Source: Pseudodesulfovibrio cashew (lineage in GTDB: Bacteria > Desulfobacterota > Desulfovibrionia > Desulfovibrionales > Desulfovibrionaceae). From it: a DNA stretch of 64,000 nt. How positions within the stretch are numbered: the stretch's first letter is position 1; every line of letters begins with the position of its first letter. The position numbers and the translations under genes were made by a program. Location of the stretch: NCBI RefSeq assembly GCF_009762795.1, contig NZ_CP046400.1, positions 3,741,501 through 3,805,500 of the forward strand, read 5' to 3'. This document shows positions 50,027 to 63,449 of the stretch, piece by piece. Under the pieces are notes generated by a model. It worked only from the letters and a program-made list of their open reading frames with translations, did not search any database and was not told the DNA's origin.

Positions 50027-52096
50027 ATGCATACGCTTTTCAGGGATGGGAACAGCTTTGGAATCAGCCGTGATTCCAGCGCATTGGAGGGTGCGGTAGA
50101 CATCCCGCTCTCACAACTTCGCAGCAAACGCGAAGCATTGGTCGACTACCCCAGATGGAAGCGTTTCATTGAAGGAAAGAAAGTTGCCATGGACGATGTG
50201 GAGGACGCCATCATCGATTCCTGGCAACGCTGCCAGAGCATGGCCGTGGACCCGGCCCCCCGGAGTTGCTGGGACTTCACCCCCATGGAACAACTCAGAC
50301 CGTTCACCTCCACCCTTGAAAAGATCTGCGGAGATATCGAAGCAACTGCCTACTCGGCCATCAAGGGCAAGGGACTACTGATAACCATCGCCAACGCAGA
50401 AGCTCGCGTGGCCCGTACCTGCGGCGACCTCGAAGTCCTGCGCCAGGCAGACAAGCTGAATTTCGGCCCCGGGGCCAACTGGGCCGAGGAAAGCGTGGGA
50501 ACCAACGCCATCGGCACCGCCATCACCACGGGCCGCCCCATGCAGGTGTTTGGCGAAGAACATTTCTGCCGCAGCCATCACAGCTGGAGTTGCACTGCGG
50601 CTCCCATCCTGGACCCGCGCGGCAACGTCTGGGGCTGCTTCGACATCTCGGGCCCGGTGAAATCCGACCATTCACAGAACCTGGAACTGGTGCTCCAGGC
50701 GGCCAGAGCCCTGGAACAGAAGCTGGCCCGGGTCTACTGCTCCGAACTCGAAGGCCAGATGGCCTCCCTCTTCTCCTCCATGTTCAACTCGGTCACCAGC
50801 GGCGTCCTGTTCCTGAACCAGGCAGGACGGGTGACCAGCGCCAACAGTGTTGCCGAGGTTTTGTTGGGAGAACGGGGACGCCCCCTGAGAGGACGGCGGG
50901 CCGAGGAACTCTTCGATTTCGAAACATTCCTCGCCAAGGCTAAGCATGCCTCCATGTGTGAACCGGTGACCATCCGCTGCCGGGTCAAGCCCGGCCTCTA
51001 TGTCCGGGCAATGCCCACCTTCAGCGCAAACGGCACCTGGCTCGACACCATCGTGACGGTCAGCGAAACCCAACACACCCGCCAATTCGCAGTCCCAGCT
51101 CAACGGACCGAAACAAAGAACGCCCGGTCCAATGCCACGCCCAAAGGCTTCGAACGCGTGCTGCATGCCAGCCCGGCCATGCGCCAGGCCATCTGCCAGG
51201 CGGGCAATGCCGCCAGGACGCCCTCCACGGTCCTGCTCTCCGGCGAATCCGGGACAGGCAAAGAATTGTTCGCCCGGGGCATCCACCAGGCCGGACCGAG
51301 GGCGGGCAAACCCTTCATCGCCGTCAACTGCGGCGCCTTCACGGAAGAGCTGGTCCAGAGCGAACTTTTCGGCTACCGCGAAGGCGCGTTTACCGGCGCT
51401 GCAAAAAAAGGACGGGTGGGCAAATTCCAGAAGGCCGACAAGGGCGTACTTTTTCTTGATGAAATTTCCGAGATGCCCCTGGCGCAGCAGGTCAACCTGC
51501 TCCGCGCCCTCGAAGAGCGGGCCATTGTCCCGGTGGGCGGCACTACGCCCCAGCCAGTGGATGTGAAAATCATCGCCGCCACCAACAAGAATCTTCAGGA
51601 ACTCGTCTCCAAGGGGCTGTTCCGAGAGGACCTGTATTACCGCCTGAACGTAGTCGGCATCTCCATCCCCGCCCTGCGCGACAGGGGGGACGACATCGCC
51701 CTCCTCGCCGAGTACCACCTGGGCAGGCTCTGCTCCGAGTTCGGTATCCAATGCTCCGGCATAACCCCTGAAGCTGAAGCCCTGCTCATGGTCCACGACT
51801 GGCCCGGTAACGTCCGCGAACTGGTCAACTGCCTGGAGTTCGCCGCCAACAATCTTGGCGGAGGCTGGCTGCGGGAAGATCACCTGCCCCCTTACCTGCG
51901 GGAGAAGGCCAAAGGAAAGGCGCTGCCCGGGCGCGGCAAACAGAGCAACGAATTCCAGCTCAAGAAACGGGAAGAGGAAGCCATCCGCGAGGCCCTCGAA
52001 TTCCACCAGGGAAATATCAGCAAGACGGCCAAGGCGCTCGGCATCGGACGAAACACCCTCTACTCGAAAATGGACCGGTTCGGCATCCAGGCCTGA
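50027..52096 (+). CDS. acoR: Sigma-54-dependent activator AcoR
   Basis: 689 residues. An N-terminal sensor with a GAF-like domain (GVGTNAIGTAI-like segment WAEESVGTNAIGTAI near 165) and a following PAS-like stretch lead into an AAA+ sigma-54 interaction domain: Walker A GESGTGKEL near 407, GAFTGAAKKGRVG near 450, FLDEISEMPL Walker B near 480. A C-terminal Fis-type helix-turn-helix (ISKTAKALGIGRNTLYSKM) ends the protein. The N-terminal DSWQRCQSMAVDP motif is typical of AcoR-type activators. No receiver domain, so it should sense a small molecule (acetoin in known cases) directly. Divergent from the operon; ribosome site GGAGG. Confidence 0.93.
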   Translation: MHTLFRDGNSFGISRDSSALEGAVDIPLSQLRSKREALVDYPRWKRFIEGKKVAMDDVEDAIIDSWQRCQSMAVDPAPRSCWDFTPMEQLRPFTSTLEKICGDIEATAYSAIKGKGLLITIANAEARVARTCGDLEVLRQADKLNFGPGANWAEESVGTNAIGTAITTGRPMQVFGEEHFCRSHHSWSCTAAPILDPRGNVWGCFDISGPVKSDHSQNLELVLQAARALEQKLARVYCSELEGQMASLFSSMFNSVTSGVLFLNQAGRVTSANSVAEVLLGERGRPLRGRRAEELFDFETFLAKAKHASMCEPVTIRCRVKPGLYVRAMPTFSANGTWLDTIVTVSETQHTRQFAVPAQRTETKNARSNATPKGFERVLHASPAMRQAICQAGNAARTPSTVLLSGESGTGKELFARGIHQAGPRAGKPFIAVNCGAFTEELVQSELFGYREGAFTGAAKKGRVGKFQKADKGVLFLDEISEMPLAQQVNLLRALEERAIVPVGGTTPQPVDVKIIAATNKNLQELVSKGLFREDLYYRLNVVGISIPALRDRGDDIALLAEYHLGRLCSEFGIQCSGITPEAEALLMVHDWPGNVRELVNCLEFAANNLGGGWLREDHLPPYLREKAKGKALPGRGKQSNEFQLKKREEEAIREALEFHQGNISKTAKALGIGRNTLYSKMDRFGIQA

Positions 52097-55023: not shown

Positions 55024-56823
55024 CTAGTAGAAAACCATCAAAGCTGCAATCATCACAACCATGTAAATCACGGTCATGCCTGCGCCGCTTCTGACGTAGT
55101 CAATGGTGCGATATCCTCCCGGCCGCATGATCAGGGCGTTGACCTGGTGCGTGGGCAGGACAAAGGTGTTGGAGGCCGCGACGGCCACGGTCAGGGCGGC
55201 TACGCGGGGGTCAACCCCGGCGTTGAGCGCCATGTTCATGGACAGCGGTACCAGCAGAACGGTCGCGCCGACGTTTGACGCCACCAGTGTGAAGAAGGAG
55301 GTTAGAATGCCGATGACAGTGAGCAGGATCACGGGCGTGGGCGTGCCCAGCGCGGCCATGATCGTGTCCGCGATGTATTTCGCGGCTCCTGTGTTCTCGA
55401 AGGCCATGCCCAGAGGGATAAGCCCGCCGAGCAGGAACACGGTCATCCAGTCAACGGACTGGTAGGCCTCGTCGATGGTCAGGACCTTGGTCAGGACCAT
55501 GCCCAGAGCGCCGGTAAGCAGCGCGATGGAAAGCTGGACGTGGAAACCGAGGATCATGGTCAGGGAGATTGCCAGCCACATCAGGGCGACCTTCGCCTTT
55601 TCCGTGCGCAGCAGCTCACCCTTGACCGCTTCGGTGAAGACCAGGTCGGGCAAGCCCTTGATCATGTGGAAGACTTCCCAACGACCGTGCAGGAGCAGGG
55701 CGTCACCGGACTCGATGACGATGTCGCTCAGACCGCTGACAAAGATCTTGTCCCCGCGGAAAATAGCCAGCGGCGAGACCTGGAAGCGTTGTCTGATACG
55801 AAGATCGGCCATGGTCTTGCCCATGAACTCGGACCGGGGGGTGACAATACCCTCCATGATGCCCGCGTTGTTGGGCGAGAGTTCCTCGGCAAAGGTGGCC
55901 AGCTCCGCCTGGAGCGCCCATCCCATGTCGTCGGCCATGTGCTCGACGAACTCCCGGGGACCCACAACCACCAGATGGTCGCCGGGTTTGACAACCTCAT
56001 CGGGTGAAGGGGCAAAGACGTGGCTGGTCCCGCCGTCGCGAGCGATGGCGACCAACGTACAGAAATAGATCGGACGAATGTCCAAGGATTTCAGTGTAGC
56101 GTCGTGCTTCCAATCCTCGGGCACATGCAACTCGTACAACGAACCGATGTTGTTGTAGGTATCAGTGAGCACCGAAGACATGGGCCCGGCGCTCTCCTCT
56201 TCGGACCGGTTCGGCAGGATGAACCGGCCGAAGATTATGAAGTAGATGAGAGCGGCTGCGATCAGAACCAGACCGATGGGGGTGACGCTGAACATCCCGA
56301 AGGACTCGTACTTGGTCCCGCCGACGACCATCAGGTCGTTGAGCAGAATCAAGGGACTGGAGCCGACGAGAGTCAGACAGCCGCCGATGATGGCGCAAAA
56401 GCCCATGGGCATGAGCAAGCGCCCCACCGGCACGCCGGTCTGGTTGCCGATGCGCTTGGCCGCGGGCAGGAAGAGCGCGGCCGCGCCGATGTTCTGCATA
56501 AAGCCGGATATGATGGCAACTGTTCCGGCTATGAGTGCCATGATCCTTGATTCGCTCTTCCCTGCGAAACGTAGGATCACTCGGGCCATTGAATTCATGA
56601 CGCCGGTTTTATCCAACCCGGCACCGATAATGATGACGGCAATAATTGAAACGACGGCGTTACTGCTCAGGCCGCTGATGGCCTGTTGCGGGGTAACCAG
56701 CCCCAGCAGGGGCAGGAGTACCATCATAATGATGCCAACCACGTCAACGCGAACCCACTCGAAGATGAAGAGGAGCACAGCGAAAGCGAGTACGGCCATA
56801 ACCGTAATAATCTCAGGGGTCAT
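55024..56823 (-). CDS. SLC13-family permease with two RCK_C (TrkA-C) domains
   Basis: 599 residues. Two blocks of membrane segments (about 1-190 and 400-599) flank a cytoplasmic part with two tandem RCK_C domains (each ending in a GDxLxxxG-like motif: KPGDHLVVVGP and ESGDALLLHGR). The SLC13/DASS signature is in VASNVGATVLLVPLSMNMAL and AVAASNTFVLPTHQVNALIM near the C-terminus. Members carry sulfate or carboxylates with sodium; the RCK_C domains may bind a regulatory nucleotide. Sulfate uptake is attractive in a sulfate reducer but not shown. It starts 41 bases after the stress-protein-like gene. Confidence 0.9.
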   Translation of the reverse strand: MTPEIITVMAVLAFAVLLFIFEWVRVDVVGIIMMVLLPLLGLVTPQQAISGLSSNAVVSIIAVIIIGAGLDKTGVMNSMARVILRFAGKSESRIMALIAGTVAIISGFMQNIGAAALFLPAAKRIGNQTGVPVGRLLMPMGFCAIIGGCLTLVGSSPLILLNDLMVVGGTKYESFGMFSVTPIGLVLIAAALIYFIIFGRFILPNRSEEESAGPMSSVLTDTYNNIGSLYELHVPEDWKHDATLKSLDIRPIYFCTLVAIARDGGTSHVFAPSPDEVVKPGDHLVVVGPREFVEHMADDMGWALQAELATFAEELSPNNAGIMEGIVTPRSEFMGKTMADLRIRQRFQVSPLAIFRGDKIFVSGLSDIVIESGDALLLHGRWEVFHMIKGLPDLVFTEAVKGELLRTEKAKVALMWLAISLTMILGFHVQLSIALLTGALGMVLTKVLTIDEAYQSVDWMTVFLLGGLIPLGMAFENTGAAKYIADTIMAALGTPTPVILLTVIGILTSFFTLVASNVGATVLLVPLSMNMALNAGVDPRVAALTVAVAASNTFVLPTHQVNALIMRPGGYRTIDYVRSGAGMTVIYMVVMIAALMVFY

Positions 56824-56864: not shown

Positions 56865-57458
56865 CTATTTGGCCCGCAACGTCGCCCGGGTGTAGACTGG
56901 AATGCTGCTCCTCTGAGAGGCGACGGCAGTGTCGTCCATGACATAGCGGAACGGATCCTTCTCGTGCATCTTGGCCACGACGCTATCCTCGTCTCCCTGG
57001 CGAACTTCGTGACAGAAGGCCAGGCCTGCGTCTTCGGCTTTGCAGGAGAAGTATTCTATATTCTTTCGAGCCTGATCGGAGAAGGCCTTGAAGTCTTCGC
57101 CGGTTTCATCAAGATTGAGAGCTACGAGCGAACTGCGGGTCTTGCTGGCCATGCTGATGGCATAGTCGGCTATTCCGCGAGAAAAGGATTCGCCCTTGCT
57201 GACGATCAGTATCTTGCACTGCGGCCGGTCACAGCGAACCGCTTCGGTTGCCATGGGGGTGTTGCAGACGGCGGCTTCCTTGCGGCTTCCGGTGAGTCGT
57301 TTGAAAAAGGTCTTCATCGAATATCCTCCCGATTGTTCCGTAAGATGATGTTCGTGATAGACTGCCCAGGCGCCTACATTGCAGGTGTTGCAATTCTTTG
57401 CGGCCATGGAGTCATAATGCTTGTCCACCACTTTTTTCACTCCGCTGAAGAGGGCCAT
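56865..57458 (-). CDS. Universal-stress-protein-like protein with a Cys-motif N-terminal extension
   Basis: 197 residues in one open frame with two well-spaced ribosome sites. From the ATG at 57458 (behind AAGGAG) a 47-residue extension contains NCNTCNVGAWAVYHEHHL. From an internal ATG at 57317 (behind GGGAGGA) a 150-residue chain has a USP-like fold: CKILIVSKGESFSRGIADYA, then SSLVALNLDE. The ATP-binding glycine loop of classic USPs is not evident at the C-terminus. Either the protein is made in two forms, or a separate short gene has become fused. It is the first gene of the SLC13-nhaB group, so a regulatory role in ion transport is possible. Confidence 0.65.
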   Translation of the reverse strand: MALFSGVKKVVDKHYDSMAAKNCNTCNVGAWAVYHEHHLTEQSGGYSMKTFFKRLTGSRKEAAVCNTPMATEAVRCDRPQCKILIVSKGESFSRGIADYAISMASKTRSSLVALNLDETGEDFKAFSDQARKNIEYFSCKAEDAGLAFCHEVRQGDEDSVVAKMHEKDPFRYVMDDTAVASQRSSIPVYTRATLRAK

Positions 57459-58017
57459 GTTTCACTCCTTACTAGTTAAACGTTGGAGGGTGCGTTTCCA
57501 CCTCTTGCGTACTCTTACTTGATCAAAACACATGCCAAAAACGAGTATCTAATTAATACACTGTAATAATTGATTAAATATATTATTTCATCTTCGTCGA
57601 TCCGAGGAAACGATGCGATATGCAACGCCGAGTGACCGAGAAATCACCAAATAGTGGCTAATTACCGTAAGACCCCCATTTTTAGCACGATGCAAAACGC
57701 AACGCTAAGAAGGCTCAAAGACAATTTACCTATTATAATATGAAACAGGACCTCCTGGCTCAGGGCATGTGAATTTTTTCGCTTGCTTGAAATTTTTATT
57801 TATTCTTTTTTTACAGCATGTTATCTAATCTAAAATATATTCCAATCTGAAACATGACAGGGAGATACCCCCTGTTGCAAAAACTCTTTCCCCTGCCGCT
57901 GCAATCTGCAACCTTAACAAGCGGAAAACAGCATGATATAAAGGGAAATACGGCACAATAAGCGCTCCGACCAACTGGGCGGTGCAAAGAAAACTGTGCC
58001 GGGGGAGGCTTTCGCGT
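57459..58017. other. AT-rich divergent intergenic region
   Basis: About 560 bases between the stress-protein-like gene and the Lon-REC gene. It is AT-rich, with a TATAAT at 57734-57739 lacking a good -35, and a TTGATCAA palindrome near 57520. A sequence read on the minus strand near it (TTGGCATGTGTTTTGATC) resembles sigma-54 but lacks the -12 GC. No gene or known RNA was found. Confidence 0.4.
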
Positions 58018-60093
58018 ATGGGATGGTTCGGTAAGAAAAAGCCGCCGGCACCTGAGGCCGAGCCGGAAAGGGAAATCCCCCGCCAGGAAGACTCCAAGGC
58101 GGTCTCCTCGACCGCGCACGACTCACTTCGGCAACGAGTGGAGTCCGCCGGCCTGCCCCCGGACGTCCTCGATACGGCCCTGTCGGAATGCGACCGGGCC
58201 ATAGCCCTCGACCCCTCGTCGCCCGAATACTCCATCGGGCAGAACTATCTCGAATTTCTTCTGGCCCTCCCCTGGGACAAGACCACAAAGGACGACCTGG
58301 ACATCGCCAGGGCCGAAGAGGTGCTTAACGCCCGGCACTACGGCCTGCGCAGGGTCAAGGAGCGCATCCTGGAATTCCTCGCGGTCAAGAACCTCCGGGG
58401 AAAGCCCACCGCGCGCATCCTGCTGGTGGACGACGAACAGATCGCCAGGGAAAACCTGTCCATAGTCTTCGAGGCCGACGGCTTTGAAGTGACCGCCGTG
58501 GGCAACGGCCTGGAAGCCGTGAAGGCCATGGAAAAGGAACCTGCCGATATCGTGGTCTCCGACCTGAAGATGGAAGGCATGGACGGCATGGAGCTGTTGC
58601 AGGTTCTCCGCCAGCGCTGGCCGGATACCAAGGTGATCATGCTCACAGGCTACGCCACGGTAAAGACCGCAGTGGCCGCCATGCGCCAGGGAGCGGACCA
58701 GTACCTGGGCAAGCCCGTCAACCTGACCAAGCTGCGCAAGTACGTCAACGAACTCTTCGAACAGAGCCTGCGCGCCCAGCACCTGCGGGGCCCGGTGCTC
58801 TGCTTTTCAGGCCCGCCCGGCATGGGCAAGACCTCTATCGGCAAGGCCATCGCAGAGGCCATGGGAAGAAAATTCTTCCGCCTCTCGCTGGCCGGCCTGC
58901 GGGACGAAGCCGAGTTGCGCGGCCACAGGCGGACCTACGTGGGGGCCATGCCGGGACGCATTCTCCAGGGTGTCAAGAAGGCGGGATCCAAGAACCCGGT
59001 CATCCTGCTGGATGAGGTGGACAAGGCCGTGCAGAACTTCCAGGGCGACGCTACCGCCGTACTGTTGGAGATGCTCGATCCCGAGCAGAACACCGCTTTT
59101 GTGGACCACTACATGGGGCTTCCGTTCGACCTCTCGGCCACCCTGTTCATCTGCACGGTGAACTCGGTGGAACGGCTCCCTGCCCCACTCAGGGACCGGC
59201 TTGAGGTGATCGAGTTCCCGAGCTACACCCGGCAGGAAAAATTCAAGATCGCCATGGACTTCCTTGTCCCGGACCAGCTTAGGCTGCACGGTCTGGACGA
59301 ACGACTGGTCACGGTCTCGCCCGAAGCGGTCCGGCAGATAGTCACCGACTACACGCGTGAAGCCGGGCTCCGCGGACTGCGCATGCAACTGGCGGCCCTC
59401 TGCCGCAAGCTGGCCAAGCATATCCTCGCCAACGGCAAGGACCGCGCCGTGGAAGTGGACACGGATACCGTAGTTGAACTGCTTGGTCCCCCGCCCTTTG
59501 CTGCCACCGCGGCCCAGCTCCGCCCCAAGGTGGGCCTGGCCACCAGCCTGGTCTGGACGGAGATAGGAGGCGAGATCATTTTCGTGGAAGCGGCACGCAT
59601 GAAGGGCAACAAGCAGCTCATGCTGACCGGCTCCCTGGGCGAAGTCCTGCGCGAGTCAGCGCAGACGTCGCTCAGCTACATCCGCAGCCACGCAAGTGAA
59701 TACGGCATCGATCCCGATTTTTACGAGGTTTCGGACATCCACGTCCACATTCCTGCGGGCGCGGTGTCCAAAGAGGGGCCTTCAGCGGGCGTGGCCATCA
59801 CCATCGCCCTGCTCTCTCTACTCACCGGACGGCCGGTGCGTCAGGACGTGGCCTCCACCGGGGAGTTGTCGCTGCTGGGCGAGGTCCTGCCCGTGGGCGG
59901 AGTCAGGGAAAAGCTCATGGCGGCCCAGTCCTCGGGCATAGCCACGGTGATCCTGCCGCAGGGATGCGCGACAAAGGTCGAGTCAATGGAAGCGGAGGTG
60001 GTGGGAAACCTGGACATCCGCTTCGTCTCGTCCATGGAGGAAGCGGCTGCCCTGGCCCTGTGCGATGCGCCTACTCCAGGTGATAACGCTTGA
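58018..60093 (+). CDS. Lon-type ATP-dependent protease with an inserted receiver domain
   Basis: 691 residues. The usual Lon N-terminal substrate domain is missing; the protein starts with a short charged leader and the Lon helical segment (LALPWDKTTKDDLD, NARHYGLRRVKERILEFLAV). Exactly where Lon continues into its ATPase, a response-regulator receiver domain is inserted (about 138-255; ILLVDDEQIAREN, phospho-acceptor D182 in VSDLKMEGMDG, K in YLGKPVNL). The AAA+ module resumes with Walker A GPPGMGKT at 265-272, and the peptidase has the dyad S589 (GPSAGVAI) and K632 (GGVREKL), spaced 43 residues as in E. coli Lon. All catalytic parts look intact. Start at 58018 behind GGGGAGG. It overlaps the convergent NtrC-type gene by 23 bases. 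Confidence 0.93.
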   Translation: MGWFGKKKPPAPEAEPEREIPRQEDSKAVSSTAHDSLRQRVESAGLPPDVLDTALSECDRAIALDPSSPEYSIGQNYLEFLLALPWDKTTKDDLDIARAEEVLNARHYGLRRVKERILEFLAVKNLRGKPTARILLVDDEQIARENLSIVFEADGFEVTAVGNGLEAVKAMEKEPADIVVSDLKMEGMDGMELLQVLRQRWPDTKVIMLTGYATVKTAVAAMRQGADQYLGKPVNLTKLRKYVNELFEQSLRAQHLRGPVLCFSGPPGMGKTSIGKAIAEAMGRKFFRLSLAGLRDEAELRGHRRTYVGAMPGRILQGVKKAGSKNPVILLDEVDKAVQNFQGDATAVLLEMLDPEQNTAFVDHYMGLPFDLSATLFICTVNSVERLPAPLRDRLEVIEFPSYTRQEKFKIAMDFLVPDQLRLHGLDERLVTVSPEAVRQIVTDYTREAGLRGLRMQLAALCRKLAKHILANGKDRAVEVDTDTVVELLGPPPFAATAAQLRPKVGLATSLVWTEIGGEIIFVEAARMKGNKQLMLTGSLGEVLRESAQTSLSYIRSHASEYGIDPDFYEVSDIHVHIPAGAVSKEGPSAGVAITIALLSLLTGRPVRQDVASTGELSLLGEVLPVGGVREKLMAAQSSGIATVILPQGCATKVESMEAEVVGNLDIRFVSSMEEAAALALCDAPTPGDNA

Positions 60094-61402
60094 TCTTTCT
60101 CCAGAGGGAGACCCTGTCGATACCGAGAATCCGCGCGGCCTGAGTCTTGTTGCCCCCGGCTGCGGCGATAACCTTGCGGATATGCGCCTTCTCCACCTCT
60201 TCCAGGGTGGGCAGCGGGGCCTCGGCCTTGGCCATGCCGATCTCCTCGGGGAGCAGGTCCGGGGTGAACGACTGCCCCTGCCCCAGTGCCAGCGCCCGCT
60301 GAACGATATTCTCCAGCTCGCGCACGTTGCCCGGGAACGGGTAGCGCATGAGAATGTCCAGGGTATCCTGGGCGATCGAAGTGATGCTCTGCCCGGGCTG
60401 GCGATGCTTCTCCAGGAAATGGCCGATGAGGATCGGGATGTCCTCGCGGTGCTCACGCAGGGGCGGAGCCTGGAGAGTGACCACGTTGAGCCGGTAGTAT
60501 AGGTCCTGGCGAAATTCGCCCTTTTCCACCAGCTCGCGCAGGTCGCAGTTGGTGGCCGCCACCACGCGGATATCCACCGGAATCTCTCTGGTACCGCCGA
60601 CCCGCAGGAACTTGCGCTCCTGCAGCACCCGCAGCAGCTTGACCTGCATGTTCAGCTCCAGCTCGCCGATCTCGTCAAAAAAGACAGTGCCGCCATCGGC
60701 AACTTCGAGGATGCCCTTTTGGCCCCTGTTGGCGCCTGTGAAGGCTTCCTTCTCGTGGCCGAACAACTCCTTGTCCATCAACTCCGGGGTAAAGGTTCCG
60801 CAGTTGATGGCCATGAACCGCTCGTCCGAGCGCTGGCTGAGTTCGTGGATACCCTGGGCTATGAGCTCCTTGCCGGTGCCGGTCTCGCCCTGGATAAGCA
60901 CGTTGCAGTTCATCTGGGCCAGTTGCCGGACCGTGTCCTTGAGCTTCACGAAGTCGTCGCTCTGCCCGACCATAGGAAAATCGCTCTTGCCCTGGGCGAT
61001 GAGTTTGCGCAGCCGCAGGACCTCCACGGACAGGGCGTGCTGCTCGATGGCGCGCTCCACCTGAAGGCGGAGTTCGTCGAGCTTGAGAGGCTTGGCGATG
61101 TAGGAGTGCGCACCCTTCTGCATGGCCTTGACCGCGTTGGCCACGGTGGCATGCCCGGTAACCACGATGACCATCAACGACGGATAACGGGCGCGGGCGC
61201 GTTCCAGCAGTTCAATGCCGTCCATGCCCGGGAGCATCAGGTCGGTGACGACCAGATCGTACTCCCGCTTGTCCAACTCCCTGAGCCCTTCCTCGGCGGA
61301 AATCATGGCCGTGACATTGTGTCCGGCGCCCGTCAGGACGTGAGTCAGATTCTCACGGGCGATCTGCTCGTCTTCGACTACCAGGATGCGCGCTGCGGTC
61401 AT
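60071..61402 (-). CDS. Sigma-54-dependent response regulator (NtrC type)
   Basis: 443 residues: receiver (D54 in TDLMLPGMDG, acidic pair E10-D11), AAA+ domain with Walker A GETGTGKE at 172-179, and C-terminal Fis HTH (GGNKTQAARILGIDRVSLWR). The sigma-54 contact loop reads EAFTGA, with Glu in place of the first Gly of GAFTGA. Its receiver begins ILVVEDEQIARENLT, very like the ILLVDDEQIARENLS of the receiver in the neighbouring Lon protein. The start overlaps the kinase stop by four bases, so the kinase at 61399 is its partner. Targets are unknown. Confidence 0.95.
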   Translation of the reverse strand: MTAARILVVEDEQIARENLTHVLTGAGHNVTAMISAEEGLRELDKREYDLVVTDLMLPGMDGIELLERARARYPSLMVIVVTGHATVANAVKAMQKGAHSYIAKPLKLDELRLQVERAIEQHALSVEVLRLRKLIAQGKSDFPMVGQSDDFVKLKDTVRQLAQMNCNVLIQGETGTGKELIAQGIHELSQRSDERFMAINCGTFTPELMDKELFGHEKEAFTGANRGQKGILEVADGGTVFFDEIGELELNMQVKLLRVLQERKFLRVGGTREIPVDIRVVAATNCDLRELVEKGEFRQDLYYRLNVVTLQAPPLREHREDIPILIGHFLEKHRQPGQSITSIAQDTLDILMRYPFPGNVRELENIVQRALALGQGQSFTPDLLPEEIGMAKAEAPLPTLEEVEKAHIRKVIAAAGGNKTQAARILGIDRVSLWRKIKRYHLE

Positions 61403-62811
61403 GCCACCCCCTCCCGAAGCAGAGGCAGGCGAATGAAAAAGGTGGTTCCTTCGCCCGGAGCGCTCTCGGCCCGGATGGAGCCCTGGTGCTTGTCGATGAT
61501 GCCGTAGACGATGAACAGACCGAGCCCGGTTCCCTGGCCCACCTCCTTGGTGGAGAAAAAGGGATCGAAGATGCGCTGGAGCGTGTCGGCGGACATGCCC
61601 TCCCCGGTGTCGGAGATGGCGATGACCTCATGCTCGTCCTCGGTGTACGCCTGGATGTCGATGACACCTTCCCCGCCGCCAATGGCCTGTATGGCATTGA
61701 TGATCAGGTTGATGAAAGCCTCCTGAAGGCGCTGCCGATCCACCATCAGCACGATGTTGTCCGGAACGTCCACATTCACGGTAATCCTGGGGCCGACCTG
61801 GCTGGAGACCAGCCGCACCGAGCTCTCCAGCACGGACTTGATGGGATAGGGCGCTGGCGAAAAATCCTTGTGCCGGGAGAACTCCAGCAGCCCCTTGACG
61901 ATGTCCCTGGCGCGGATGGTCTCCTGGGTGATGTTGCGCATCATCTTGTCGGCGAACTCGCTCTGCCCGCCGGTCTCCTCCTCCAGAATCTGGGCGGAGG
62001 TGGAGATGTTGTTCAGCGGGTTGTTGAGCTGATGGGCGATGCCCGATGCCAGCGTACCGATGGAGGAGAGCTTCTGCGCCTGCACCAACTGGATCTGGCG
62101 CTTCTTGAGTTCCTCGACCATGGAGTTCAGGGCGACGAACACCTGCTGGATCTCATCGTGGGCGTTACGCACGGTCAGGGGGACGAAGGTGCCTTGGGCG
62201 ATGCTGCGCGTGGCTTCCTGCACCTTGCGCAGGGGCCCGAGAATGCTCCGGGTGACAAAGGCCACCAGGGCGAGCACGACCACCGCGATGACGCCCATGG
62301 AGATCACCAGGGTCATGCGCAGCTTTTGGTTGATCCCCAGGATGCTCTCCCGCTCGAACTCGGCGATGGCGCGGGAGTGCTCCACAATCTCCTGCCCGGT
62401 CTCGCGCAAGGCTTTGGCGGCCAGCGTATTCTCCTCGGGGAGGGCTGGAGCCTTGCTGAGCCGGTCGAGCAGTTCGCCGTAGCGCTCCAACCCCTTGGCC
62501 ATGGCTTCGCCGTGAGTCATGCCCCCCGGCTCGCCGATCTCCTCGGACAAGGCGTCCAGCGCGGTCCTGACCTTTTGCAGGTTTTCACGCCCCACCGTAA
62601 AAAATGCCCGGTCCCTGTAGAGAAAGAAGTTCTTCTCCTCACGCCGGATTTCGAGGATCAGGTTGCGCAGGTCATCGGCCCGTTCGACCAGGATGACCTC
62701 CTGCTGCAACTGATTGATGTTGGAGAGCGAGAGCAATCCTATGCCGCCGAAGGCGAGCGTGAAGATCGCGATCCCGATGATGATGGTATGTCTGAGATTG
62801 GGTCTGACCAT
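61399..62811 (-). CDS. NtrB-type sensor histidine kinase, partner of the NtrC-type regulator
   Basis: About 470 residues. Membrane segments near 10-30 and 155-178 enclose a helical periplasmic sensor of four-helix-bundle type (EIRREEKNFFLYRD is typical of such domains); HAMP follows, then HisKA with H260 in GIAHQLNNPLNNIS and HATPase (DTGEGMS, GTGLGLFIVYG). The H-Q-L-N-N-P box places it with NtrB/ZraS-like kinases that work with sigma-54 regulators. The ATG at 62811 puts the first membrane segment at the N-terminus; in-frame starts upstream to 62934 would add an atypical leader. It may phosphorylate both the adjacent regulator and the receiver in Lon. Confidence 0.92.
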   Translation of the reverse strand: MVRPNLRHTIIIGIAIFTLAFGGIGLLSLSNINQLQQEVILVERADDLRNLILEIRREEKNFFLYRDRAFFTVGRENLQKVRTALDALSEEIGEPGGMTHGEAMAKGLERYGELLDRLSKAPALPEENTLAAKALRETGQEIVEHSRAIAEFERESILGINQKLRMTLVISMGVIAVVVLALVAFVTRSILGPLRKVQEATRSIAQGTFVPLTVRNAHDEIQQVFVALNSMVEELKKRQIQLVQAQKLSSIGTLASGIAHQLNNPLNNISTSAQILEEETGGQSEFADKMMRNITQETIRARDIVKGLLEFSRHKDFSPAPYPIKSVLESSVRLVSSQVGPRITVNVDVPDNIVLMVDRQRLQEAFINLIINAIQAIGGGEGVIDIQAYTEDEHEVIAISDTGEGMSADTLQRIFDPFFSTKEVGQGTGLGLFIVYGIIDKHQGSIRAESAPGEGTTFFIRLPLLREGVA

Positions 62812-62987
62812 GTACTGCGTCCTCGTTTTCTCCCGCTGGAACGGGAGAATCCACAGTATGCCGCGCACATGGAAAACGCAAGGCGTTGTCCCCCGGTCCG
62901 TCACCGAGCCGGGGAGCGGTAACACAAGCGGCATAACCGCACAGCAAAGTCGAAATGCTTCGGCTCGTCAGCCGCAGAGGGGTGCGG

Positions 62988-63449
62988 CTACGCCAGCTTC
63001 CGGTTGGCGTAATCGAAGAATCTCCCACTCTTGATACTGAATTCCTTGTCGAAAAACACGGAGGAAATAAGGAACTCGGCCGAGGAACGATTGCTGGCGG
63101 TGGGGATGTTATAGAGAACGGCAAGCCGGAGCAGGGCCTTTACGTCCACGTCGTGCGGCTGGGGCTCCATGGGGTCCCAGAAGAAGAACAGGATGTCCAC
63201 TCCGCCGTCCGCGATCAACGCGCCGAGCTGCTGGTCGCCGCCCAGGGGGCCGGACTTCAGCCGGGTGACCTTTTTGCCCCCGTGCTCTGCCGCCCCACTG
63301 CTGAGCAGCTCCTCCACCAGCCGTCCGGTAGTACCGGTTGCCACTAGGTTGTGCTGGAGGATGGCGTCGCGGTTGCAATCGAGAAAATCCAGGAGCTCGT
63401 CCTTGCAGTTGTCGTGAGCCACCACGGCAATGTTTTTAACGCTGTCCAT
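62988..63449 (-). CDS. mgsA: Methylglyoxal synthase
   Basis: 153 residues, the normal size for MgsA, which converts dihydroxyacetone phosphate to methylglyoxal and phosphate in the cytoplasm, a bypass under phosphate limitation or sugar-phosphate stress. Active-site regions are visible: AVVAHDNCKDEL at the start, VATGTTGRLVEE (phosphate loop), SGPLGGDQQLGA with the catalytic Asp, and DPMEPQPHDVDVKALLR with the histidine. It stands alone, about 175 bases upstream of the kinase start in the same direction. Ribosome site GGGAGG. Confidence 0.96.
   Translation of the reverse strand: MDSVKNIAVVAHDNCKDELLDFLDCNRDAILQHNLVATGTTGRLVEELLSSGAAEHGGKKVTRLKSGPLGGDQQLGALIADGGVDILFFFWDPMEPQPHDVDVKALLRLAVLYNIPTASNRSSAEFLISSVFFDKEFSIKSGRFFDYANRKLA

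Follow-up and report, generated by a model that had tools for sequence, protein, structure and literature searches.

The window analysed here, a stretch of 64,000 nucleotides, encodes at 58018..60093 (+) a 691-residue protein, hereafter REC-Lon, in which a response-regulator receiver and a Lon protease share one chain, as established by ORF translation, Pfam and a check of individual residues. Pfam assigns Response_reg to residues 134-243 (E 8.9e-30), AAA to 261-399, Lon_lid to 424-474 and Lon_C to 480-681, and the protein scores 674.7 bits against the NCBIfam model TIGR00763 (lon), whose curated cut-off is 608.05. On the DNA, the receiver domain (residues 132-250, delimited by Pfam and alignments) spans 58411..58767 (+), followed by the Pfam-defined AAA+ core (58798..59214, +), Lon lid domain (59287..59439, +) and Lon proteolytic domain (59455..60060, +). 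Walker A reads GPPGMGKT (residues 265-272, 58810-58833), and the proteolytic domain holds Ser589 (codon 59782-59784) and Lys632 (codon 59911-59913). A sequence-only reading of the gene had proposed that it keeps the catalytic elements of Lon, has lost the N-terminal substrate domain and has gained a full receiver with D182. All three points are borne out: Walker A, S589 and K632 lie where that reading placed them; LON_substr_bdg has no match in the Pfam scan of the 691 residues and is present in both of the ordinary Lons found in the same genome (L002, L003); and the receiver carries an intact chemistry set, namely the acidic pair D138/D139, the phospho-acceptor Asp182 (58561..58563, +), T210 and K232.

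The protein opens with MGWFGKKK (58018..58041, +), the local form of a motif M-x(0-2)-[FLIW]-F-x-[RKQ] with a consensus of about MIFFRK. This motif, or something near it, occurs in 112 of the 118 unique relatives whose 5' end is closed, in a count where the motif itself guided the choice of start codon, and four of the remaining six are similar by eye: L035 (GTG), L080 (MGWFNIRK), L129 (HFFTRK) and L120 (MIWFRKG). An alternative start lies upstream (GTG at 57982), and the start at 58018 is preferred because it fits the conserved motif. The motif Phe is coded by TTT in 61 cases and TTC in 51, which points to selection on the amino acid. Of 806 other, crudely called neighbourhood genes, one carries a stricter form of the motif in its first 60 residues. 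The tether that follows is variable, with 65-89 residues from Met to LPW. The motif could serve as a pseudo-substrate, a membrane tag or a docking peptide.

Convergent with REC-Lon, and overlapping its 3' end by 23 bases, lies the gene of a sigma-54 response regulator (REC-AAA-Fis HTH by Pfam; 60071..61402, −), followed by that of a histidine kinase (HAMP, HisKA and HATPase_c by Pfam; 61399..62934, −). Divergent from REC-Lon is a gene for a small UspA-like protein (56865..57458, −), which has no Pfam or NCBIfam match but resembles, by BLAST, proteins encoded near other REC-Lons; it is adjoined by a CitMHS / TrkA_C anion transporter gene (Pfam; 55024..56823, −). Farther out, a methylglyoxal synthase gene (NCBIfam; 62988-63449, −) lies beside the kinase, and the frame at 50027-52096 (+) falls by similarity in a mixed cluster of sigma-54 regulators and Lons.

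Insertion site and conservation of the receiver

Alignments with two solved Lons, 7p6u and 3m6a, which we take to be Thermus Lon and Bacillus LonA, respectively, delimit the insertion. A retained Lon helical region together with the first AAA+ helix occupies residues 35-127 (58120..58398, +). REC-Lon residues 32-127 align with 7p6u, and 35-126 with 3m6a, through the helix YGLxxVKERILEYLAV, which in Lon helps to hold the adenine base. Lon sequence picks up again at GPVLCFSGPPG, the P-loop strand, and the same is seen against the genome's own Lons. Since the Lon alignment runs through this helix and resumes at the P-loop strand, the receiver is, by alignment, inside the AAA+ module, between its first helix and the P-loop strand and immediately ahead of the latter. 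The receiver had earlier been described as sitting between the helical segment and the AAA+ core; its place ahead of the P-loop stands, but it is inserted within the AAA+ module and not merely before the ATPase.

Both joints of the receiver are constant in length. The spacing from KP to GPPG is 33 in all 160 unique relatives, of which 56 came from searches without selection on spacing and the other 104 were found with the spacing in the pattern, and the spacing from LPW to the acidic pair is 54 in all 145 of these relatives in which it could be measured. The same junction thus recurs across genomes in 160 unique sequences, and chance or misassembly is rejected as the origin of the fusion. Among 52 REC-Lon members scanned, Response_reg, AAA, Lon_lid and Lon_C were found in 52, and LON_substr_bdg was not among the 15 families that these members matched. 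Two frames depart from the general form: that of Desulfothermus okinawensis (L098) is only 313 residues long, and in that of a Desulfobacca MAG (L120) little remains of the helical region that separates the N-terminal motif from the receiver. These are broken genes, sequence errors or variants.

Residue counts were made over 140 unique frames of at least 600 residues, a set that contains the window's frame and some that are truncated at the 3' end. Within the receiver, D182 and K232 are present in 140/140, D139 in 139 (one gap), T210 in 139 (one Ser) and D138 in 138 (one Glu, one gap). The sequence-only reading had named failure of D182 to be conserved among orthologues as a finding that would count against it, and no frame departs from D at this position. 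The AAA+ residues K271, T272, Y307, D332, E333 and R394 are each found in all 140, and the protease dyad is kept in 139 (S589, one gap) and 136 (K632, four gaps); the residue before the catalytic Ser is Pro in 129 frames, Ser in seven, Ala in three and a gap in one. A degenerate pseudo-receiver is rejected in view of this conserved chemistry. The constant joints would also suit a purely structural role, in which the receiver is retained for its fold and serves assembly or docking independently of phosphorylation. Such a receiver would be expected to lose some of its chemistry residues, whereas D139, D182, T210 and K232 are kept in 139-140 of the 140 frames, and we regard this explanation as very improbable.

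Distribution, lineage and gene neighbourhood

Within the family Desulfovibrionaceae, REC-Lon was found in 39 of 99 genomes (one by a partial match); across the phylum, it occurs in 51 of 395 genomes (three by partial matches). The other four sampled genomes of the window's own genus gave no REC-Lon match, and a genome of another genus holds a REC-Lon (L010) that matches the query used at 86% identity; such a pattern could stem from loss or from horizontal transfer. When a collection of 84,980 named species genomes was scanned with a sequence pattern, at least 117 stretches matched, and each of the 117 listed has a frame holding the receiver-to-Walker-A junction. By their titles, 87 belong to Thermodesulfobacteriota and two to Nitrospirota, while the assignment of 20 titled 'Deltaproteobacteria bacterium' to Myxococcota, of three titled 'Proteobacteria bacterium' to Pseudomonadota and of five to no phylum probably reflects titles more than organisms.

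In a tree built without the receiver, 36 REC-Lons drawn from 129 unique relatives occupy one side of a branch (SH-aLRT 99) against 31 ordinary Lons, 29 of which are best matches of one Lon of this genome. REC-Lons are thus a well-supported single lineage in this sequence tree, as judged against the 31 ordinary Lons sampled.

The gene neighbourhood was surveyed by tblastn at 61 loci, namely the window and 60 further stretches of 12-20 kb. An anion transporter of CitMHS or TauE type is present in 57 of the 61, and a UspA-like protein likewise in 57. At the loose thresholds of this survey, where the kinase matches include weak ones and one regulator (in L243) is just 36% identical, the kinase is found in 53 loci, the sigma-54 regulator in 51 and both in 51; some stretches without regulator or kinase stop at a contig edge. 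Of the 61 loci, 33 have their nearest regulator downstream in convergent orientation, 12 have it downstream on the strand of REC-Lon, six have it upstream and 10 lack one. Across the 99 family genomes, 37 have both REC-Lon and an orthologue of the regulator, two have REC-Lon alone, one has the regulator alone and 59 have neither (Fisher p 1.3e-23), an orthologue being defined as at least 49% identity among the matches listed, a cut-off chosen after inspection of the list; the best regulator matches in genomes without REC-Lon reach 48% (G040) and 47% (G037).

By eye, a FAEAGE-like segment and basic N-termini are frequent among the UspA-like proteins near REC-Lon (L184-L243). Their basic fraction at the N-terminus is 0.23 against a background of 0.14 (26 proteins). 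An N-terminal tag common to REC-Lon and the UspA-like protein was considered and rejected: some of the starts look alike by eye, but the composition differs only modestly from background.

Receiver kinship, upstream elements and proposed control

The best other match to the REC-Lon receiver in the genome is the receiver of the neighbouring regulator (E 4.6e-29). In other genomes, the second match above the cut-off is mostly on the same contig, within some 10 kb, and in a few it lies on another contig or far off (e.g., G058 and G080). Helix alpha-1 is the kinase-docking helix of two-component receivers. That of REC-Lon shares 8 of 14 residues with the partner receiver, against a mean of 15% and a maximum of 29% with 40 other receivers of the genome, a subset of the 90-odd other matches; over the rest of the domain, identity is 47% to the partner and 34% to the same 40. 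In the second docking element, the beta5-alpha5 loop, identity is 0.375 with the partner and on average 0.34 with other receivers. Across 51 loci, same-genome pairs of alpha-1 average 0.515 and mixed pairs 0.486, a difference for which 4 of 1000 shuffles were as high; this same-genome excess is small, and relatedness could partly explain it.

A copy of the neighbouring regulator's receiver is a candidate origin for that of REC-Lon. The nearest-receiver relation and the clustering of Lon with partner receivers fit it, but an exclusive clade of the two is marginally rejected (p-AU 0.0425); a single clade of Lon receivers is not rejected (p-AU 0.383). These tests used 71 of 179 receivers, made up of roughly one in three Lon receivers, the partners of these and 30 of the genome's 40 others, with eight long-branched receivers left out, and the receiver trees are poorly resolved.

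Upstream of REC-Lon, the dyad TGTTGCA-N3-TGCAACA (up to three mismatches, within 350 bases) is found in 49 of 61 loci against 0.8 expected from mononucleotide shuffles. It is a putative operator of the sigma-54 regulator; the available text of the D. vulgaris locus papers gives no letters for an operator motif. The window's own candidate, CGCTGCA-ATC-TGCAACC (57897..57913, +), has three mismatches and is weak by itself. A second three-mismatch site lies at 57681-57697, and the whole window has four sites against 2.0 expected. A sigma-54-like -24/-12 element directed at the UspA-like gene (57522..57537, −) has two mismatches and is not significant in the window alone, where the pattern gives 23 matches against 31.9 expected. 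Of the 61 loci, 18 carry the -24 heptamer TGGCACG, against 1.9 expected, and 15 of the 18 sites point at the UspA-like gene. The strict pattern (at least 10/12) occurs toward that gene in four of 61 loci (shuffle mean 0.56) and toward REC-Lon in one of 61 (shuffle mean 0.48). A sigma-54 promoter toward REC-Lon is rejected as not above chance, and the full -24/-12 pattern upstream does not appear clearly above chance in these scans.

The reading that we favour, with about as much belief as doubt, is that REC-Lon is a phosphorylation-controlled Lon protease forming the second output of one sensor kinase. In its favour stand the conserved receiver and protease residues, the constant joints, the single lineage, the linkage and co-occurrence with kinase and regulator, the similarity of the two docking helices, the upstream dyad and the D. 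vulgaris cofitness described below. From phosphotransfer onward, we infer the following course. The adjacent membrane kinase would phosphorylate REC-Lon at D182 and also the sigma-54 regulator; once phosphorylated, the Lon receiver, fixed rigidly next to the nucleotide site, would alter ATP binding or ring assembly; the altered ring would switch on degradation of a specific target in the same pathway; and the regulator would control transcription of the REC-Lon, UspA-like and anion-transporter genes. Substrates are probably few and specific, since the general substrate-binding domain is missing and a LonA core without its N-domain is reported, in the available part of PMC8087443, to leave aggregated or native lysozyme undegraded. 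Several points count against this reading: the beta5-alpha5 loop is hardly more like the partner's than like those of other receivers, the same-genome excess in alpha-1 is small, an exclusive clade of Lon and partner receivers is marginally rejected, and the operator candidates in the window are weak.

The direction of control, on and not off, is drawn from the related DVU3303 system of Desulfovibrio vulgaris. There, DVU3303, DVU3304 and DVU3305 are described as detrimental in chlorate, with pairwise cofitness >0.9 (PMC10102598, available passages), which suggests that protease, kinase and regulator work in one direction. Polarity may contribute to this cofitness, since the three genes share one orientation at a locus of the D. 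vulgaris kind (L205). The same source gives the reported target DVU3299, an anion transporter, as important in chlorate; these opposite signs fit poorly with simple activation of that transporter and lower our confidence in the favoured reading.

The cofitness bears likewise on a negative-feedback explanation, in which the receiver serves as a handle for docking to the shared kinase or pairing with the partner receiver, and REC-Lon degrades the regulator or the kinase, or drains phosphate, thereby limiting the response. The docking helix common to both receivers and the frequent linkage to the kinase-regulator pair would suit it, as would the putative operator dyad upstream of REC-Lon, which such a loop requires. 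A negative regulator should, however, differ in fitness from the genes that it restrains, whereas the patterns of the three D. vulgaris genes are near-identical, though polarity could mask a difference; we judge this explanation unlikely.

An off-switch, in which the ring is active as long as the receiver is unphosphorylated and the substrate is stabilised by the signal, appears distinctly unlikely. The sign of control is not fixed by sequence, and serine phosphorylation is reported to inactivate the Lon of Xanthomonas citri (PMC5784255, available passages). Against this, the genes of the DVU3303 system are reported to be upregulated under several stresses, which fits activation better, and Rajeev et al. 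2011 suggest that DVU3303 needs phosphorylation for protease activity (PMC3333781, available passages). The open-licence papers searched yielded no biochemical record of phospho-control of REC-Lon.

More tentatively, and with doubt prevailing, REC-Lon may form a Lon subfamily of its own. Its aspartyl receiver, on two constant-length joints, would gate the nucleotide pocket directly and turn phosphorylation mechanically into ATPase and protease activity, without an adaptor, and an N-terminal MxFFRK-like peptide on a variable tether would replace the substrate domain as a built-in pseudo-substrate or membrane/partner tag. Regulated bacterial proteolysis is mostly understood as acting through adaptors or changes in the substrate. 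With the signal input built into the protease and a candidate kinase adjacent, the switching of an AAA+ protease would become approachable with one point mutation (D182A) and one kinase. If the favoured reading is true, a kinase with two outputs, transcription and proteolysis, would exist in many sulfate reducers.

Comparison with known Lons and receiver systems

The AAA+ and protease cores of LonA (S16; 7p6u, 3m6a, 7fd4) align with REC-Lon over about residues 254-687. The rules given for LonA in the available part of PMC9569914 are 42 residues between Ser and Lys (a spacing given for LonA and LonB alike), 60 between the Walker A Lys and the Walker B Asp, and Pro before Ser. REC-Lon follows all of them, with 42 residues between S589 and K632, 60 between K271 and D332, and P588 before the catalytic Ser. 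Unlike LonA, it has no N-terminal substrate-binding domain, a short N-terminal motif standing instead, and it carries a receiver ahead of the P-loop strand. LonB, LonC and LonBA are likewise described as Lon cores without the LonA N-terminal region, and LonB and LonC also have extra pieces in the AAA+ alpha/beta subdomain (PMC9569914, available part). The LonB insert is given there as a membrane anchor of >100 residues between Walker A and Walker B, whereas that of REC-Lon is a receiver before Walker A; a LonB-type membrane insert is absent in REC-Lon, whose Walker A-B distance is that of LonA.

Control of an AAA+ motor by a receiver is the principle of the NtrC-family regulators (REC-AAA+-HTH), and the best other receiver match in the genome belongs to such a regulator. 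In that family, the receiver is a separate N-terminal domain on a linker that is longer and slightly variable (66-73 from KP to GESG in 52 frames of the loci). In REC-Lon, by contrast, the receiver lies within the motor and the output is proteolysis. The Lon of Xanthomonas citri is also switched by phosphorylation, but through a phosphoserine on Lon itself and with no aspartyl receiver, as described in the available passages of PMC5784255.

The closest likeness is to the DVU3303 system of Desulfovibrio (Nitratidesulfovibrio) vulgaris Hildenborough, in which, according to the available passages, receiver and Lon share a chain encoded next to a kinase and a sigma-54 regulator, the arrangement found in the window. 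Its reported targets include UspA-type and anion-transporter genes, and both gene types lie nearby in the window (PMC3333781, PMC10102598 and PMC4641369, the last tabulating the regulon). DVU3305 is reported to regulate its own operon and a neighbouring one, and Rajeev et al. 2011 reported orthologues in other genera (PMC3333781, available passages). Orthology to DVU3303 is putative, drawn from its description and from near relatives (L107, L154 and L167); records titled Nitratidesulfovibrio oxamicus (a 53-residue fragment), N. liaohensis and Desulfovibrio sp. A2 hold REC-Lon frames. The REC-Lon start in the genome that holds locus L205 (G038) is identical to that of Desulfovibrio sp. A2. The regulator-kinase pair of the window converges on lon, whereas in L205 all three genes run in one direction. 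The REC-Lon kind is thus already in print (DVU3303, 2011), though hardly studied, and the window gene is a further member. Beyond the available passages, the present analysis locates the insertion, shows that the joints are constant, gives figures for conservation and co-occurrence, and adds the similarity of the two docking helices, an operator-like dyad and the N-terminal motif.
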